Shown in pieces: positions 47,570-57,251 of a stretch of DNA of 64,000 nt. The translations under genes were made by a program, and so were the position numbers. How positions within the stretch are numbered: position 1 is the stretch's first letter; each line of letters opens with the position of its first letter. The notes under the pieces are model-generated. The model worked only from the letters and a program-made list of their open reading frames with translations, was not told where the DNA came from and searched no databases. Source of the stretch: a bacterium (GTDB lineage Bacteria > Hinthialibacterota > Hinthialibacteria > OLB16); the NCBI GenBank assembly GCA_022072055.1, contig JAJVIK010000017.1, positions 62,001 through 126,000 on the forward strand, given 5' to 3'.

Positions 47570-47590
47570 GGACAGGCGGGACGCCTGTCC
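47570..47590. repeat. Short palindromic repeat in the psp operon
   Basis: Perfect 9-bp hairpin GGACAGGCG/CGCCTGTCC with a GGA loop. The pspC stop codon (TAG, 47592-47590) overlaps its end by one base. Palindromes of this type recur in many GC-rich genomes; I see only this one in the window. Confidence 0.6.
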
Positions 47591-47973
47591 TACTCGTGCA
47601 ACCGGCTCTCCCAGTCGTAATCGCGGGCGGTGACAATGTCCTCCATCCGGCGGATGCGCCGGTCGAGGCTGTCGAAGGTCCGCTTGAGGCGATGCAGGGC
47701 CATGCTGCGCGAGGAGACGTACGAGTTGTAAAACTCGCGGTCATCCTCGCTCTCGAACGGGATTACCGGTTCGGGTTTCATCACCAGCGCGCCGACAATG
47801 TAGGCGATCAGGAGCGGCCAGATTCCGGTCATGATGCAGGCGATCACCGTGATCACGCGCATCCAGAACACCGGGAAGTCGAGGTATTCCGCAATCCCCT
47901 TGCAGACCCCGAAGATGGCCCCATCCCGCGCGCGGTAAAGGGTCTTGGTTTCTTCATGGTAGTGACGGTTCAT
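47590..47973 (-). CDS. pspC: PspC-domain protein
   Basis: Inner-membrane protein of 127 residues of the phage-shock family. The conserved opening is TKTLYRARDGAIFGVCKGIAEYLDFPVFWMRVITVIACIM, followed by the second helix (WPLLIAYIVGALVM). The C-terminal part (about 85-125) is a charged coil with RLKRTFDSLDRRIRRMED. In E. coli PspC with PspB signals membrane stress and releases PspA from PspF. ATG 47973 has AAGGTG seven bases upstream; ATG 47979 is possible. The PspB-like genes lie upstream in the same operon. Confidence 0.9.
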   Translation of the reverse strand: MNRHYHEETKTLYRARDGAIFGVCKGIAEYLDFPVFWMRVITVIACIMTGIWPLLIAYIVGALVMKPEPVIPFESEDDREFYNSYVSSRSMALHRLKRTFDSLDRRIRRMEDIVTARDYDWESRLHE

Positions 47974-48013
47974 GGTCATTCACCTTTCCACTTTCTGTAT
48001 CACCCTCCCCCAG

Positions 48014-48296: not shown

Positions 48297-48566
48297 TTAT
48301 TCCCGATCCCCGACTGTCCGATCCGCTTCGCGGACCCGATCCAGCAGCAGGGTCTCCAGGGCTTCGATTCGTTTCTCCATCCGGACGGCGATGCGGTTGA
48401 GCTCCTGGATGGTTTGCACATCCTCCTTGCTCGCGCCCGCTCCGCCGACCGAGCCGGAGCCATCCTTGCCCTTGAGAATCTTGAGGGCGGTGATCCCAAA
48501 GCCGCATAGAATCGCGACCAGGGGGATGCTGAACACCATGATGACCGCGAGTATGTCCACTCCCAT
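48297..48566 (-). CDS. PspB-like protein, fourth tandem copy
   Basis: Protein of 89 residues, closest in size to PspB. One membrane helix (about 4-28, ILAVIMVFSIPLVAILCGF) is followed by a Gly/Ser linker and the PspB-type coil VQTIQELNRIAVRMEKRIEALETLLLDR. The same coil ends the three genes upstream. It begins 14 bp after the third copy. By analogy it would partner PspC in stress sensing. Confidence 0.78.
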   Translation of the reverse strand: MGVDILAVIMVFSIPLVAILCGFGITALKILKGKDGSGSVGGAGASKEDVQTIQELNRIAVRMEKRIEALETLLLDRVREADRTVGDRE

Positions 48567-48580
48567 CGAGGCAGCTCCTT

Positions 48581-48973
48581 TCAGTTCGCCGAATCCGGTC
48601 GGGATTCCTCACCGCTCAGGTTTCGCGTGTTGTACATCAGCAGGGTCTCCAGCGACTCCACCCGGCGCTCCAGGCCGGACAACCCCTGGTGGACCTCCTG
48701 AAGAATCCGACTCTCCTCTTCCCCGCCCCGATCAGCTCGCTTGTCCCCCCTGATCAGGAGGAACAAGCCGATCAGGAAGGTTGATCCCAGCAAGAGCAGA
48801 GTCGGCGTCATCGCCAATCGTATCGTCCTGGATGCCCCCTGCGGGGTCCCTCCCTCCAGCATCGCTGTCGGCGCCGAAAGGTCCTGGTAGGCGACAAGTC
48901 TCACTCCCCAATACCCCAGCGGAAGCGCCAGGAAGAGGACAAATCCGATCAGAATGCAACCCAGTGCGCGCAT
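48581..48973 (-). CDS. PspB-like protein, third tandem copy
   Basis: Protein of 130 residues with two membrane helices (about 6-28 and 55-74) and a C-terminal coil ILQEVHQGLSGLERRVESLETLLM that aligns with the other copies. The outside loop between the helices is about 25 residues. It ends 14 bp before the next copy. Classic PspB has one helix, so this form is extended. Confidence 0.72.
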   Translation of the reverse strand: MRALGCILIGFVLFLALPLGYWGVRLVAYQDLSAPTAMLEGGTPQGASRTIRLAMTPTLLLLGSTFLIGLFLLIRGDKRADRGGEEESRILQEVHQGLSGLERRVESLETLLMYNTRNLSGEESRPDSAN

Positions 48974-48992
48974 AATCGCCTGCTCCTCGGTC

Positions 48993-49388
48993 CTAAAGTT
49001 TGTGGAGGAACGAATCCTCGCGAGACTTTTCCATCCAGAGGGTTTCCAGCGCCTCGATCCGCTCCTCCATGCGAGTCATCGAGCGGTGGATTTCCTGAAT
49101 AAGCTGGGTCTCCTCCAGATTCCGATCTTGGGAATCCTTCCCGGCACGGATTTCATAGGCCTTGAGGGCGCCTTTAACGAGCAAGCTGATCGTGATCACC
49201 GTGGCCACGCAGACAATGGCCACTGTATCCGCGTCGATTCCGGGACCGGTGGAGAGACCTTGAACCAGGTCCCCGCCTTGCAGACGGGCGCGGGCGAGGG
49301 AGGGCAGGAAGATCGCGACCCCGACCAACCCGATCTGGATCAACAGGATGACCACCACCACGCCAACTAGGATTCCGACGAGCCTCAT
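48993..49388 (-). CDS. PspB-like protein, second tandem copy
   Basis: Protein of 131 residues. ATG 49388 is chosen to start at the first helix (VGILVGVVVVILLIQIGLVG); an in-frame start at 49403 would overlap the previous gene. A second helix is at about 60-80 and the PspB coil is TQLIQEIHRSMTRMEERIEALETLW. It ends 19 bp before the third copy. Confidence 0.73.
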   Translation of the reverse strand: MRLVGILVGVVVVILLIQIGLVGVAIFLPSLARARLQGGDLVQGLSTGPGIDADTVAIVCVATVITISLLVKGALKAYEIRAGKDSQDRNLEETQLIQEIHRSMTRMEERIEALETLWMEKSREDSFLHKL

Positions 49389-49399
49389 GGACTTCCTCC

Positions 49400-49732
49400 T
49401 CACGGTTCTTCGTAGGTCGAGGCGCGGTCCAGAAGAATGGTCTCGAGCGTCTCGATCCGCCGTTCCATCCCGGCGAGACTGTTGTGAATCTCCTGGATAA
49501 GCCGGGTCTCATCCCGGCTCCAATCCTCGCCCCGCTTGCGCACGGGTCGCCCGGAGGCGCCCCGCAGGAGGGCGTAAAGCCCCCAACACACCACCCCCAG
49601 CACCGCCACCGGCGCGAGCACCACCAGGAGCACCACCGCAAGGGCGGTGAGCAGTCCGACCCCCGCCAGCACAATCGGCAGGGCGAGCATGACCGCCGCC
49701 GCCAACAAGATCAGCTTGAGGATCAACCGCAT
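49400..49732 (-). CDS. PspB-like protein, first tandem copy
   Basis: Protein of 110 residues: a long hydrophobic region (about 3-58) that may cross twice, a basic stretch, then the coil TRLIQEIHNSLAGMERRIETLETILL. It starts 103 bp after pspA and ends 11 bp before the second copy. ATG 49732 begins the hydrophobic segment; upstream in-frame codons run into low-complexity Arg-rich shadow. Confidence 0.72.
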   Translation of the reverse strand: MRLILKLILLAAAVMLALPIVLAGVGLLTALAVVLLVVLAPVAVLGVVCWGLYALLRGASGRPVRKRGEDWSRDETRLIQEIHNSLAGMERRIETLETILLDRASTYEEP

Positions 49733-49835
49733 CGCATTGCCCCCTCCCGCTCGGAGCCACGCTCGCCGCCTGGGTTGCACCCGACTCGTGCCGGACTGAT
49801 CTGCCTGTCGGGGTGATTCTACCACCCGGCCCGGG

Positions 49836-50519
49836 CTATGTCGTTTGCGAAGTTCCGGCCTTCTGGCGCACGCTGTCCTTAAGGGCAACCAGCTCCTTCT
49901 CGATCTCCTCGTCCTCCTGGAGCTTGGCGAATTCATCCTCAAGGGTCGGCTTGCGGGCGAAGTTCACCAGGTCGGCCTCGGCCTCCATGCGCTCGATTCG
50001 GTTCTCGAACTTCTCGAAGCGCACAAAGGCATCCGAGGTGTCCACCTTGCGGATCCGCTCCTGGGCCTCCTTCTTGCTGCGGGCGCGAATGTGGCGCTGG
50101 ACCAGGAGTCGCTGACGCTCGCGAGCCGAGGAGAGCTTATCCTCCAGCTGGCGCATGTCTTCCTGGTACTGCTCCACGATTTGGTCGCAGTGACGCATCT
50201 CCTCCTCCAGGGAGGCCGCGCGGTCGCGGTAGCGCTTCTTCTCGTGAAGCGCCTCGCGCGCCAACTCGTCGCGCCCCTTGGCCACCGCGAGCTGGGCTTT
50301 CTCCTCCCAACGGGCCGCGCGGGTCTTGCACTCATCCAGCTGACGCTGGGTTTTCTTCCGGGCCGCCATCGCCCCGGCGCAGGAGGCGCGGACCTCGACC
50401 AGCGTGTCCTCCATCTCCTGGATCATCAGACGAACCATTTTCTCGGGGTCCTCGGCCTTGTCCAACATCGCGTTGATGTTGGAGCTGATGATGTCTCGCA
50501 CTCGTGTGAAGATTCCCAT
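49836..50519 (-). CDS. pspA: Phage shock protein A (PspA/IM30 family)
   Basis: Peripheral membrane protein of 227 residues starting at ATG 50519 behind AAGGAGG. The family start GIFTRVRDIISSNINAMLDKAEDPEKMVRLMIQEMEDTLVEVR is unmistakable, followed by a long coiled coil (to about 190). PspA is an ESCRT-III-like protein that binds damaged membranes and restrains PspF. The C-terminal 35 residues hold the last helix. It is the second gene of the operon. Confidence 0.95.
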   Translation of the reverse strand: MGIFTRVRDIISSNINAMLDKAEDPEKMVRLMIQEMEDTLVEVRASCAGAMAARKKTQRQLDECKTRAARWEEKAQLAVAKGRDELAREALHEKKRYRDRAASLEEEMRHCDQIVEQYQEDMRQLEDKLSSARERQRLLVQRHIRARSKKEAQERIRKVDTSDAFVRFEKFENRIERMEAEADLVNFARKPTLEDEFAKLQEDEEIEKELVALKDSVRQKAGTSQTT

Positions 50520-51035: not shown

Positions 51036-52097
51036 ATGAGAGAGATCACGCCACGTGGTGGTGGAGAACACCATCTTTTCCTTCCCGAGGCGCTGGGAGA
51101 ATCCGAGGCCTTCCTGGAGTTTCAGGAGCGCTTGTCGCGGGTGGCCCGTGTGGAGCGTCCGGTGCTCTTGATCGGTGAGAGAGGGACGGGGAAGGAACTC
51201 GCCGCGGCGCGTTTGCACGCCCTCTCGGCGCGCTGGCAGGGCCCGATGGTGGAGCTCAACTGCGCCGCGCTTTCGCCCACTCTGATCGAGTCCGAGCTCT
51301 TCGGGCATGAGGAGGGAGCTTTCACCGGCGCTTCGCGGCGACGTCAGGGGCGCTTCGAGATGGCGCATCAGGGAACCCTGTTCCTGGATGAGATCGGAAA
51401 CATCCCGATGGAGGCGCAGGAGAAGATTCTGCGCGTGGTGGAGTATGGTCGTTTCGAGCGAGTGGGCGGAACCCGCCAGGTGCAAGTGGATGTTCGCATC
51501 CTCGGGGCCACGAACGTGGATCTCACGCGCCTGTGCGAGGAGGGTCGCTTCAAGAGGGATCTTCTGGATCGTCTGTCGTTCGAGGTTCTGACCCTGCCCC
51601 CGTTGCGAGAGCGGGGAGGCGACATTCTTCTGCTCGCCGCGCACTTCGCAAACCGGATGGCGTTTGAGCTCGGGAGGAGCGAGATGCCCACGTTCGCTGC
51701 GAGCGCGCAACGCGCGTTGATGACTTACTCATGGCCGGGCAATGTGCGCGAGCTCAAGAACGTGGCCGAGCGCGCGGTGTATCGCTCGGACTCCAACGTG
51801 ATTGGAGAGATTGTGTTCAATCCCTTCGCGACCCTTGAGGAGCGTCCCTTGCCGGATGCGCGCGTGCAGGTTTCGGAGGAGCCTGTGGATAAGCGCGCGC
51901 GCAAACCGATTCGGTTTGAGGAGGCGTTGATGGAGTTGGAGATGGAGTTGCTGCAAAGGGCCCTTGCCGAAACTGGACAGAATCAGCGCAAGGCGGCGGA
52001 GGCGCTGGGGTTGTCGTATCACCAGTTCCGCTGGGTGTATCGTCGCCACAGGAAGGCCCTGGAATCGGCGCTAACCCTTGAAGAATCCAAGACTTAG
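51036..52097 (+). CDS. pspF: PspF-like sigma-54 transcription activator
   Basis: AAA+ enhancer-binding protein of 353 residues. The order and motifs match E. coli PspF: LGESEAFLEFQERLSRVA, Walker A GERGTGKE, the sigma-54-contact loop GAFTGA, Walker B GTLFLDEIGN, PLRERGGDILLLA, and SWPGNVRELKNVAERAVYR. There is no N-terminal sensory domain, as in PspF, so PspA can act as the direct inhibitor. The C-terminal helix-turn-helix is NQRKAAEALGLSYHQFRWVYRRH. It is transcribed away from the psp operon. Confidence 0.93.
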   Translation: MREITPRGGGEHHLFLPEALGESEAFLEFQERLSRVARVERPVLLIGERGTGKELAAARLHALSARWQGPMVELNCAALSPTLIESELFGHEEGAFTGASRRRQGRFEMAHQGTLFLDEIGNIPMEAQEKILRVVEYGRFERVGGTRQVQVDVRILGATNVDLTRLCEEGRFKRDLLDRLSFEVLTLPPLRERGGDILLLAAHFANRMAFELGRSEMPTFAASAQRALMTYSWPGNVRELKNVAERAVYRSDSNVIGEIVFNPFATLEERPLPDARVQVSEEPVDKRARKPIRFEEALMELEMELLQRALAETGQNQRKAAEALGLSYHQFRWVYRRHRKALESALTLEESKT

Positions 52098-52114
52098 AAC
52101 TGTGAGAGAAAGCC

Positions 52115-52144
52115 TTGACAAAATTGTGGGAAAAATGCTAGAAA
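52115..52144 (+). promoter_or_regulatory. Distal promoter of the cysteine-rich gene pair
   Basis: Perfect TTGACA (52115-52120), 18-bp spacer and TAGAAA (52139-52144) with a TGC extended -10. It lies 175 bp before the first cysteine-rich gene. Confidence 0.55.
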
Positions 52145-52176
52145 TACCCAACCGGTCGATGGGGTAGTTGCCACGA

Positions 52177-52215
52177 CCTTCAGTCGAATGGTGCCGAGCC
52201 AGAGTTGACTGAAGG
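52177..52215. promoter_or_regulatory. 9-bp inverted repeat between two promoters
   Basis: CCTTCAGTC (52177-52185) and GACTGAAGG (52207-52215) are perfect inverted copies 21 bp apart, lying between the distal and proximal promoters of the cysteine-rich genes. It could be an operator pair or an mRNA hairpin in the distal transcript. Confidence 0.4.
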
Positions 52216-52221
52216 GGTGGA

Positions 52222-52250
52222 TTGTAATCCCTCCGAAGACTGGGTATAGT
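52222..52250 (+). promoter_or_regulatory. Proximal promoter of the first cysteine-rich gene
   Basis: TTGTAA (52222-52227), 17-bp spacer, TATAGT (52245-52250; five of six). Start would be near 52257, leaving a leader of about 63 bases with AGGAGG at 52309-52314. Confidence 0.5.
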
Positions 52251-52319
52251 CCCTGCGTGCTCACTGAAGCGGAGGGATGGTCCCGCGCAGCGGGCTTGAA
52301 AATTCAATAGGAGGATTTG

Positions 52320-52817
52320 ATGAGCATGAAACGGGTAGTTGTGGGTCTTGTTGTGGTTCTTGCTTTGGGTGTCGTTGCGACCCCGGGTCACGCGTTCCTG
52401 TTTGGGAACTGCTGCTGCAATACTTCGTGCTGCGCGGTTGCGCCGTATGAGGTGAAAGTGACCTATACTCCGATCGAGCCGCAGCCGGGCGAGTGCACTT
52501 ACTGCACTTGCTTGCCGTATGGCTGCCCCGATGGCGCTCCGTGCGTCAGCGGTTGTCCGCCGTGTGGTCCTGGGTGTGGCGTTGGTGTTGGTTGCGCCGC
52601 CCCCGCGGCTTGCGGCCCCTGTGGCATCAACCTGTGCGGGATTCTTAGCACCCCGTGCTGCGTTGTCGGCCCCGTTGTGAGTGGCGCTTGCGGTCTGGTT
52701 GGCGGCGTCCTCGATTGCGCCTGTGGTATCGTTTCGGGCGTTCTCGGCTGCCTCGGCTGCTGCAACCCCTGTGGCGCCGGCTGCGGCGCTCCGGCGGGCG
52801 CGGCGATGGCCCAGTAA
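52320..52817 (+). CDS. Secreted cysteine-rich protein, copy 1
   Basis: Protein of 165 residues with a signal peptide (hydrophobic helix, ending ATPGHA). The mature part opens FLFGNCCCNTSCCAVAPYEVKVTYTPIEPQPGECTYCTC and has 27 cysteines. A central Gly/Pro/Cys-rich region (about 80-105) leads to a glycine-zipper-like segment with GLVGGVLDCACGIVSGVLGCLGCC, then ends AMAQ. I know no family with this layout. Cys spacing is not that of ferredoxins. It may form a disulfide-linked surface or envelope structure; that is inference. Coding is certain: two promoters, AGGAGG, and a strong terminator frame it, and copy 2 shares conserved sections. Confidence 0.85.
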   Translation: MSMKRVVVGLVVVLALGVVATPGHAFLFGNCCCNTSCCAVAPYEVKVTYTPIEPQPGECTYCTCLPYGCPDGAPCVSGCPPCGPGCGVGVGCAAPAACGPCGINLCGILSTPCCVVGPVVSGACGLVGGVLDCACGIVSGVLGCLGCCNPCGAGCGAPAGAAMAQ

Positions 52818-52847
52818 GCACTGTCGCACTTCTGAACATTGCTCTCT

Positions 52848-52884
52848 AAGGGGAGGATCGCTCGGTCCTCCCCTTTTTATTTTT
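52848..52884 (+). terminator. Intrinsic terminator after cysteine-rich copy 1
   Basis: 10-bp perfect stem AAGGGGAGGA/TCCTCCCCTT (52848-52857 with 52866-52875), 8-base loop, then a T-rich run at 52874-52884. Confidence 0.88.
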
Positions 52885-53008
52885 GCCCTTCCGCCTGGTC
52901 CCCCTACCCGGCCAAATTTTCCCGTAAGGTTCATTCTTGCCCAGGCCGATAACCTCCATGAAATGCCCGAGTGTGGGCTCGTATCACCGATAGGAGGACT
53001 GAAGGAGC

Positions 53009-53506
53009 ATGAAACGGGTCGTTCTGGTAGTTCTTGGCGTTCTTGCTTTGGGTCTGATCGCGCCTCCCGGGCATGCGTTTCTGTTCGGGAACTGTTGCTG
53101 TAACACCTCGTGTTGCGCGGTGGCGCCTTATGAAGTCAAGGTGACTTACACCCCGATTGAGCCGCAGCCGGGCGAGTGCACTTACTGCACTTGTCTGCCG
53201 TACGGTTGTCCGGATGGGGCCCCTGTCTGCCCGCCCTGCGGGCCGGTGGGTTGTGGTCCCTGCGGAACCGCGGTCGGCGCCGGTTGTGGCGCGCCTTGCG
53301 GCGGCGGGATTTGCGGTCTGGCCTGCAACCCCTGCTGCTTTGTGACCCCGATTGTATCGGGCGCTCTCGGCATGGTCGGCGGGGTTCTGGACTGCGCTTG
53401 CGGCATGGTTGCCGGGGTTCTTTCCTGCCTGGGGTGCTGCACCCCCTGCTGCGCGCCCTCGCCGTGCTGTGGCGGCATGGGCGGTGGCGTGGCGATGGCT
53501 CAGTAA
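53009..53506 (+). CDS. Secreted cysteine-rich protein, copy 2
   Basis: Protein of 165 residues, a tandem paralogue of the preceding gene, with 28 cysteines. The signal peptide ends APPGHA. The first 45 mature residues are almost identical to copy 1 (FLFGNCCCNTSCC, EVKVTYTPIEPQPGECTYC, LPYGCPDGAP). The middle differs and is Gly/Cys/Pro-rich, and the zipper GMVGGVLDCACGMVAGVLSCLGCC is kept, ending in two CC pairs and AMAQ. AAGGAG precedes ATG 53009. No promoter is clear in the 124 bp between the terminator and this gene. Confidence 0.85.
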   Translation: MKRVVLVVLGVLALGLIAPPGHAFLFGNCCCNTSCCAVAPYEVKVTYTPIEPQPGECTYCTCLPYGCPDGAPVCPPCGPVGCGPCGTAVGAGCGAPCGGGICGLACNPCCFVTPIVSGALGMVGGVLDCACGMVAGVLSCLGCCTPCCAPSPCCGGMGGGVAMAQ

Positions 53507-53540
53507 CGCGCGCGCACACCCAATCTTGAGCAAAGCCAAG

Positions 53541-53577
53541 GCGGGGGAGACTGAAACTCTCCCCCGCTTTCGTTTTT
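53541..53577 (+). terminator. Intrinsic terminator after cysteine-rich copy 2
   Basis: 10-bp perfect stem GCGGGGGAGA/TCTCCCCCGC (53541-53550 with 53558-53567), 7-base loop, T-run 53568-53577 with a CG interruption. Confidence 0.85.
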
Positions 53578-53619
53578 GCCCCCGAGCTCCTGGGGCATGA
53601 ATCCCCGGACTCCCCTGGT

Positions 53620-53625
53620 TATACT
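53620..53625 (+). promoter_or_regulatory. Possible -10 box for a leaderless larC message
   Basis: TATACT lies seven bases before ATG 53633, so transcription would start on or next to the start codon. No good -35 is visible and no ribosome site precedes the ATG, which fits a leaderless message. Confidence 0.35.
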
Positions 53626-53632
53626 GCCGCTC

Positions 53633-54802
53633 ATGAGCGTTTCGGACCGTCTGCTCTATATCGATGCCTTCGCGGGGCTTTCCGGAGACATGTTCCTCGG
53701 GGCGCTGGCCGATCTGGGCCTCCCGCGAGAGCTTTTCGAGGGCTTGCCGAAACGTCTTGGGTTCCCCAAGGCGACCCTGTCGATCCGGACCCTGGTTTGC
53801 TCCGGCATCGCCGCCAGGCAAGTGGCCATCGGCGCGCCGCGCGAGCACAGCCACCGTCACCTGCCGGACATCGAGGCCATCCTGGCCGCCTCCGATCTCC
53901 CCAAGGGGGTGATTGAAGGATCGATGCGAACCTTCCGGCTGATCGCGGAGGCCGAGGGACGGATTCATGGGATCGCGCCGGAGCAGGTCCATTTCCATGA
54001 GGTTGGCGCGGTGGACTCGATCCTCGACATCGTGGGGACTCACTTGGGGGTGTTTGAGCTCGGCGTTTCCCAAGTGATCAGCTCGCCGATCCCGCTCGCG
54101 CGCGGGAAAGCCGCGATGGCCCATGGGGTCCTGCCGATCCCCGCCCCCGCCACGGTCGAGATCCTCTCCGGCGCGCCGACTTATGGAATCGAGGTCCCGT
54201 TCGAGAATGTGACTCCGACCGGGGCGGCGCTCGCGGTGAGTCTCGCCTCGGAGTTTGGCGATTGGCCCGCGATGACCCTTGAGCGGAGCGGCTGGGGCGC
54301 CGGAACCAAGGAGGGGGGCGAGCTCCCCAATGTCCTTCGACTCATCCTGGGGCATGTCGCCGAGGGGCTGTCAGGCGACCGGGTATGGGTGCTGGAGTGC
54401 GAGGTGGATGACATGCTCCCCGAGTTTTTCGAGCCGCTCTGGACTCTCGCCTTTGAGCGGGGCGCGCTTGACCTGTATCTCACTCCGGTCCAGATGAAAA
54501 AAGGGCGACCGGGGACCCTGGTCACTCTTCTGGCGCGCGACCCTCAACGTTTTGAATGCGAGCGTCTCCTCCTTGAACACACCACCACCTTGGGGGTGCG
54601 ACGGGTCTTGTGCGACCGAACGGTTCTGGAGCGCGAGGTCTTGATCGTCGAGACCGAGTACGGGCCCATCCCGGTCAAGGTGGGCAAGGGAATCGCGGGA
54701 AAGGCGGCGCCGGAGGCGGCGGCGGTCAAGGTCGCCGCTGAAAGGGCGGGGGCCCCGATGAGCGTAGTGTACGTTGCAGCGTTGCGCGCCGCGAGTTCCT
54801 GA
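53633..54802 (+). CDS. larC: Nickel pincer cofactor biosynthesis protein LarC
   Basis: Protein of 389 residues that in Lactobacillus inserts nickel into the pyridinium dithiocarboxylate cofactor of lactate racemase. Family hallmarks are YIDAFAGLSGDMFLGALADLG, HSHRHLPDIEAILA, HFHEVGAVDSILDIVG, and VLECEVDDMLPEFFEPL. The C-terminal half carries KKGRPGTLVTLLA and TTTLGVRR. In some species larC is read as two pieces by frameshift; here it is one frame. The partner genes larA, larB and larE are not in the window, and the many related racemase-like enzymes mean the target need not be lactate racemase. Confidence 0.9.
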   Translation: MSVSDRLLYIDAFAGLSGDMFLGALADLGLPRELFEGLPKRLGFPKATLSIRTLVCSGIAARQVAIGAPREHSHRHLPDIEAILAASDLPKGVIEGSMRTFRLIAEAEGRIHGIAPEQVHFHEVGAVDSILDIVGTHLGVFELGVSQVISSPIPLARGKAAMAHGVLPIPAPATVEILSGAPTYGIEVPFENVTPTGAALAVSLASEFGDWPAMTLERSGWGAGTKEGGELPNVLRLILGHVAEGLSGDRVWVLECEVDDMLPEFFEPLWTLAFERGALDLYLTPVQMKKGRPGTLVTLLARDPQRFECERLLLEHTTTLGVRRVLCDRTVLEREVLIVETEYGPIPVKVGKGIAGKAAPEAAAVKVAAERAGAPMSVVYVAALRAASS

Positions 54803-55940: not shown

Positions 55941-57251
55941 CTAGAAGGCCACCTTGAAGGGCTCTTCCGGGGCTTTGGCGGCGCGCTGGACCGCACCGAC
56001 CAAGCCGAGCGCCACAAAATTGGCCAGAAGAGAACTCCCGCCGTAGGAAAAGAACGGGAGCGGAATCCCCGTGATCGGCATCAGCCCCATCGTCATGCCC
56101 AAGTTGACAAAGATGTGGACCCCCCACATCCCCACCACCCCAAAGACCAGGCTGCTTTCCCTCCAGGTTGACGCCCCCCCCGCGGCGCCGACCGACGCGA
56201 GCAGCAGCAACGCCAGAAGCAGAAACAAGAGGCTTGACCCAAGGAAGCCGAGTTCCTCCGCCAAAACCGCGAAGATGAAGTCGGTTCGCATCATCGGGAT
56301 GAAACCATGACTGCTCTGCAGCCCCTGCCCCAGCCCCTGTCCGGCCAGCCCTCCCGATGAGATCGCAATCAGCGATTGCCTCAGGTGATAGGCGGCGGGG
56401 GAAAGCTCGCGCACATCTCCCTCGACCCCTTGAACAAAGCCCGCTATGCGGTCCCGCTGGTGGGGTTTGAGAACCTCGGTCCACAACGGTTTGATCCCCT
56501 GGACCACCACCACGACCGAAAGGGCATGAGCCAGGCCAAACAGCGCAAGTCGCCCGGCGCGCTCGCCCTTCCAGGAAAGCAGCAGCAACCAAAGCCCGAC
56601 TCCGGACCCCCACACCATCCAGGGCAAGACCTCATTGGGGAGCGCGACCACCGCCCAGATCGGGATGGCAATCAGGCTGAGGTAGCGCCGCTGAATCCGT
56701 GATCCATACAACATGGCCACAAGGATGCCGGGGAAAACCAACGCGGTTCCAAGGTCCGGTTGAAGCGCAATCAGGGCTGAGGGGACCGCGGCAAGCAGAG
56801 TGGCCAGGAGAAACTGGCGGAAACCCGGCACGGCCCCCTTGGGAGGATTGAGCGCCCTCGCCAGGGCGAGGATCGAAACAATCTTCATGGTCTCGGCGGG
56901 CTGGAAGCGCATCGGTCCCAGGTCGAACCAGGAGACCGCGCCCCCTTTTTCGGTTCCGGCGAAGCGTAGTGCTAGGAGCGCCAGCAGGTTGAGGGCATAC
57001 AGGAATGGCGCCAGGGCGAACAGAAACCGGGTGGGAACCAGGGAAGCCCCCAGCGCCGCCGCGACCCCGAGGCAAGCCCAGAGCGCCTGTTTCTGCCACA
57101 AACGAAGCCCCCCCAAGTAATCCGGCTCGGACCCGGACAGGAGAAACACCCCCAGGGTGACAACCCCCACCGCCGGGAGAAAAAGCACAAATTCCTTCCG
57201 CCAGCGGATCGGTAAGCCGATCCGCGCCGGGCGCTCAGCCAATTCGGTCAC
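55941..57251 (-). CDS. rodA: Rod-shape SEDS glycosyltransferase RodA
   Basis: Inner-membrane peptidoglycan polymerase of the SEDS family (436 residues, about ten helices), working with a class B PBP in the elongasome. Typical segments are GGAVSWFDLGPMRFQPAETMKI, ALQPDLGTALVF, and the large extracellular loop with AYHLRQSLIAISSGGLAGQGLGQGLQSSHGFIPMMRTDFIFAVLAEELGF. ITGIPLPFFSYGGSSLLANF is the C-terminal family signature. The start is GTG 57251, abutting the stop of the DUF4139 gene. RodA is preferred over FtsW because of the RodA-type loop sequence; no partner PBP lies here. Confidence 0.92.
   Translation of the reverse strand: MTELAERPARIGLPIRWRKEFVLFLPAVGVVTLGVFLLSGSEPDYLGGLRLWQKQALWACLGVAAALGASLVPTRFLFALAPFLYALNLLALLALRFAGTEKGGAVSWFDLGPMRFQPAETMKIVSILALARALNPPKGAVPGFRQFLLATLLAAVPSALIALQPDLGTALVFPGILVAMLYGSRIQRRYLSLIAIPIWAVVALPNEVLPWMVWGSGVGLWLLLLSWKGERAGRLALFGLAHALSVVVVVQGIKPLWTEVLKPHQRDRIAGFVQGVEGDVRELSPAAYHLRQSLIAISSGGLAGQGLGQGLQSSHGFIPMMRTDFIFAVLAEELGFLGSSLLFLLLALLLLASVGAAGGASTWRESSLVFGVVGMWGVHIFVNLGMTMGLMPITGIPLPFFSYGGSSLLANFVALGLVGAVQRAAKAPEEPFKVAF

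Follow-up and report, generated by a model that had tools for sequence, protein, structure and literature searches.

The window (the whole stretch of DNA analysed, 64,000 nucleotides) contains, at 52320–53506, two tandem genes for predicted exported, cysteine-rich proteins of 163 (counted from the Met at 52326) and 165 residues, here called copy 1 and copy 2, which share 74% sequence identity (Table 1). The initial annotation had described tandem genes for proteins with 27 and 28 cysteines, and quoted the segments GNCCCNTSCC, EVKVTYTPIEPQPGECTYC, and GGVLDCACG; both open reading frames are found there, the counts are exact, and all three segments are present. Its estimate of one Cys in six residues captures the richness, but the share is nearer one in five of the mature chain (19.3% in copy 1 and 19.7% in copy 2, after residue 23), because all 27 and 28 Cys, respectively, fall in the mature part. 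The corresponding per-gene value for the same genome is 1.3% on average, with a 99th percentile of 5.3% and a maximum of 7.9%, among 722 putative genes chosen as greedy longest open reading frames in 784 kb of the 5.86 Mb genome. Both Cys-rich genes are missing from this background set, since an overlapping open antisense frame displaced them from the greedy selection.

Table 1. Coordinates of the tandem genes and associated features in the window.
Feature	Position	Strand	Basis
Possible sigma-70-type promoter of gene 1	52222..52250	+	TTGTAA-17-TATAGT, 9/12; consensus match only
Gene 1 (copy 1), exported Cys-rich protein, 27 Cys	52320..52817	+	Start at ATG 52320 or 52326; homologues known
Signal peptide, copy 1 (MKRVV...GHA), signal peptidase I type	52326..52394	+	Sequence reading; kept in four homologues; cleavage site inferred
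Conserved core, copy 1, SCCAVAPYEVKVTYTPIEPQPGECTYCTCLPYGCPDGAP	52425..52541	+	37/39 residues identical across four homologues
Gly/Cys hydrophobic segment, copy 1, ACGLVGGVLDCACGIVSGVLGCLGC	52686..52760	+	Two similar 11-residue units
Intrinsic terminator after gene 1	52848..52875	+	12-bp stem, T-run; homologous stretch upstream of G013 gene
Gene 2 (copy 2), exported Cys-rich protein, 28 Cys	53009..53506	+	ORF reading
Signal peptide, copy 2	53009..53077	+	Sequence reading; homologue alignment
Conserved core, copy 2	53108..53224	+	Homologue alignment, pN/pS
Gly/Cys hydrophobic segment, copy 2, ALGMVGGVLDCACGMVAGVLSCLGC	53363..53437	+	Alignment; low-confidence predicted helix 121–138
Intrinsic terminator after gene 2	53538..53570	+	13-bp stem, T-run

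Long open antisense frames cover both genes (52071–52934 and 52931–54355, reverse strand), and an open antisense frame would be compatible with the two reading frames being no genes at all, only a composition artefact of GC-rich DNA. This explanation is next to impossible, and is refuted by the pattern of change in the conserved core, which is purely synonymous between the copies (pN 0, pS 0.69) and nearly so between genera (pN 0.04–0.06 versus pS 0.65–0.88). The ribosome-binding site and start region are conserved in all four homologous genes, and the remaining frames of the same DNA contain 0–10 Cys, which leaves the coding frame as the sole Cys-rich one. As the core pN is 0 despite a pS of 0.69, and as each copy is equipped with a separate ribosome-binding site and terminator, both are real genes. 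Purifying selection acts on the encoded protein of both, and their Cys richness is therefore not due to chance; the antisense frames are most likely artefacts of codon use. The duplication is old, since dS between the copies (1.24) is comparable to that between genera (1.1–1.7). With a strong terminator of its own, each gene constitutes a single-gene unit, as far as the 3′ end shows. An Rfam search of the window returned no RNA element. Codon adaptation of both genes is at the 29th–35th percentile, below the genome median, and very high expression of the pair is not supported by codon use.

Neither protein matches a family in Pfam, NCBIfam, PHROGs, or PDB sequences, in line with the initial annotation, which could place them nowhere. 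When contigs of GTDB genomes were scanned with six peptide patterns, two loci were confirmed, one in a Candidatus Hinthialibacteria genome (G013) and one in a metagenome-assembled genome labelled Omnitrophota (G012). These are the other two genomes of the family to which the window belongs, each representing a separate genus, so that homologues are present in all three family genomes (Hinthialibacteria; three genera), and absence from relatives does not apply. The Omnitrophota label of the G012 contig (L002) is probably older, as the genome set assigns G012 and the Hinthialibacteria genome to one family. A profile search of 386 genomes gave no homologue in the 383 others, including all 11 other members of the class, and when the core alone was used against the 386, the next match beyond the family dropped from an E-value of 1e-30 to 0.005 (19 bits), i.e., noise. 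A weak match in G011 was discarded because the profile search did not confirm it, and viral contigs, phages, and plasmids gave no homologue. Judged by these searches, the two proteins represent a previously unnamed family, to date observed in just three related genera within a little-known phylum, which illustrates that well-conserved small exported proteins of Hinthialibacterota can lack any family model. The G013 gene begins 150 bases into its contig. Ahead of it lies a 39-base match to the terminator of copy 1, comprising a hairpin and a T-run (local score 38; maximum 24 in 1000 shuffles), which suggests that a copy-1 gene is located just past the contig end; the tandem pair is thus probably common to G013 as well.

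The secretion proposed in the initial annotation is supported by a predicted Sec-type signal peptide that is kept in the four homologues. By inspection, the signal peptide does not end in a lipobox (L-x-[GAS]-C) but reads GHA-FLFGNC there, and both proteins differ from bacterial lipoproteins in this respect. The nearly invariant core of about 39–40 residues has the consensus SCCAVAPYEVKVxYTPIxPQPGECTYCTCLPYGCPDGAP. It is followed by a divergent middle part rich in Cys, Gly, and Pro, which varies in length and Cys number among homologues. Sixteen Cys are invariant in the four homologues, while the totals are 18 (G012), 27, 27, and 28, and such variation outside the invariant set is as expected if Cys density there outweighs exact position. 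The C-terminal part contains two similar 11-residue units with the pattern G-x-V-x-G-[VI]-L-x-C-x-[CG]. If this segment is helical, we hypothesize that Gly121, Gly125, Cys129, Gly132, Gly136, Cys140, and Cys144 (copy 2 numbering; spacing 4-4-3-4-4-4) would line up as one stripe, which is conserved with the single exceptions of Asn at position 132 in G012 and Ala at position 144 in G013. The earlier designation of this segment as a glycine zipper holds with respect to the GxxxG spacing within a hydrophobic Gly/Cys segment, as in glycine-zipper proteins, but no Pfam glycine-zipper model is matched, and here Cys residues are interleaved in the stripe. Besides the profile search, structure prediction had been proposed as a check, and yielded no usable model: the AlphaFold pLDDT is 34 for the whole protein (full alignment) and 47 for the core alone. 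A helix is predicted at residues 121–138 of copy 2, but with a pLDDT of about 30, and is hypothetical for that reason. A PDB fold search with the whole-protein model gave no match, which carries little weight given the poor model.

The start of gene 1 is located 222 bp past pspF on the same strand; this neighbour matches the PspF equivalog, and PspA is encoded divergently. The arrangement could suggest that the proteins are effectors or a shield of the Psp envelope-stress response, turned on by the adjacent PspF. We regard this role as quite improbable, because pspA and pspF occur together in all three family genomes, but are adjoined by a Cys gene only in the window's own. Orthologues beside psp genes had been suggested as a test, and neither G013 nor G012 shows such adjacency: the 3′ neighbour of pspF is a response regulator in the former and a prepilin-like gene in the latter. 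In addition, no −24/−12 sigma-54 site (TGGCAC-N5-TTGCW, at most two mismatches) is present on the coding strand upstream of either gene, and the sole nearby sigma-54-like match lies within gene 1, in the antisense direction; this negative is weak, since the pspA–pspF interval likewise gave no site. Membership of the Psp regulon was rejected on the basis of the linkage in one of three genomes and the missing sigma-54 promoter. The proximity to the Psp genes noted in the initial annotation is thus real, but the functional link is most likely a coincidence of place. The psp locus itself shows an apparent expansion of PspB-like genes, in that four adjacent small membrane proteins (48297–49942, reverse strand) share a terminal RIEALETLLLDR-like helix and each give a sub-threshold match to PspB (PF06667; E-values 7e-5 to 0.015); a PspC gene at 47590–47979 follows them.

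The neighbours of the Cys gene in G013 are truA, a DUF4139-type gene, and rodA (the first and last identified by sequence), and in the window rodA and the DUF4139 gene are found 2.4–5 kb away from the gene pair, which could be a faint trace of shared gene order. No partner gene of the Cys genes is conserved across the three genomes. Because of this, and the terminator behind each gene, the description of the locus as an undescribed system is too strong.

The suggestion that the proteins are cross-linked structural or metal-binding proteins appears plausible for both alternatives. As the main rival to the structural role, secreted metallothionein-like proteins could hold soft metals (Cu, Zn, Cd) through CxxC and CxC clusters. 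The homologues contain 4–7 CxxC, 2–5 CxC, and 3–7 CC motifs, among them an invariant ECTYCTC, and resemble metallothioneins in their high Cys content and in the CxC and CxxC motifs, but differ by the signal peptide and the hydrophobic Gly-rich half, and have no metallothionein match in Pfam or NCBIfam. The mature chain also lacks His, and an exported Cys-rich chain would encounter an oxidising enzyme. In G012, a Cu/Zn efflux transporter (NF033936) is encoded on the same strand as the Cys gene, which lies about 0.24 kb further downstream, but this neighbour is not conserved: in the window's own genome (G000) the transporter gene resides on a different contig (C25), and it is absent from G013. 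Linkage to a metal transporter was rejected, as it adjoins a Cys gene in G012 alone, where this transporter, of the SO_0444 type (L002:5945-7159), is encoded directly upstream of the homologue. Similarly, gene 2 in the window is followed by LarC, a nickel-insertion protein, but in G013 LarC is on the psp contig, away from the contig with the Cys gene. Taken together, metal binding is unlikely, but deserves serious consideration.

A core that is almost constant across genera, while the rest drifts, would fit the binding surface of a secreted disulfide-rich protein, soluble or at the surface (adhesin, inhibitor, or signalling protein), with the invariant core as the active binding domain. We find such a function rather unlikely, since sequence and profile searches reveal no likeness to a known fold or binding family, and the hydrophobic nature of the C-terminal half points to assembly or contact with a membrane. 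Small, Cys-rich, tandem products would also be compatible with precursors that are processed to a small peptide (a RiPP or an antimicrobial), but the Sec-type signal is ordinary, conservation runs along the chain, and no obvious modification or peptide-export gene lies nearby, which makes this highly improbable.

We tentatively favour, as a quite possible if not yet probable explanation, a lineage-specific exported structural protein that is oxidised by a VKOR-DsbA enzyme, assembles through the Gly/Cys helix stripe and disulfides, and is kept as a tandem pair. The chain would be exported by Sec and oxidised by the VKOR-DsbA fusion; the stripe of small residues in the zipper segment would allow helices to pack and Cys of neighbouring chains to link, and the invariant CxxCxC core would be the folded part, docking to a partner or to itself. 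Assembly would yield an insoluble layer, held together by disulfides and positioned on or beneath the outer membrane, in which the two copies could provide two slightly different building blocks. A VKOR domain is present in all three family genomes, and in the window's genome it is part of a 410-residue VKOR-thioredoxin/DsbA fusion encoded on the same contig as the gene pair. Two of the homologues have odd Cys counts, so that with full oxidation one Cys or more would be free to pair between molecules. The structural role is supported by the signal peptide, the 16 invariant Cys, purifying selection on the core, the conserved stripe, VKOR in all three genomes, and other Cys-rich exported proteins. 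Against it are the low pLDDT values, the codon adaptation below the median, the absence of a conserved partner, and the fact that VKOR serves general housekeeping and is unspecific as evidence. The more ambitious proposal of a new envelope material, in which glycine-zipper helices form a lattice, are disulfide-locked in register with the zipper, and come from paired paralogues of a family unique to one Hinthialibacterota lineage, is distinctly unlikely.

Cys-rich exported proteins are also encoded elsewhere in the sampled genome, namely a TIGR04073 (exosortase-system-associated) protein with Cys-rich flanks (L064:11907-12578) and a 67-residue lipoprotein-like protein (L058:11306-11509; 16% Cys, MTGCC ending the signal, no family match above threshold). 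The TIGR04073 protein resembles the tandem copies in being exported and Cys-rich, with Gly/hydrophobic segments, but neither copy matches TIGR04073, and a profile comparison aligns the signal peptide only. Envelope armour made of exported Cys-rich proteins is familiar chiefly from Chlamydiae. As for the two proteins described here, the chlamydial OmcA and OmcB are exported and Cys-rich, and they have a proposed role in disulfide-linked envelope assembly (PMC2811131, PMC6752827), to which a crosslinked role of the tandem copies would be analogous. Unlike OmcA and OmcB, the copies have no Pfam or NCBIfam match of this kind (E-values up to 10), they differ in size and architecture, and they belong to an unrelated phylum, where the window's lineage shows no sign of missing peptidoglycan (a RodA-like gene, named from sequence, is present at 55941–57251). 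We infer that both proteins could work like the chlamydial Omc proteins, without being related to their families. If true, this unrelated family, with its almost frozen core and Gly/Cys zipper, would represent a crosslinked envelope of independent origin, in a phylum represented here by assembled genomes alone.
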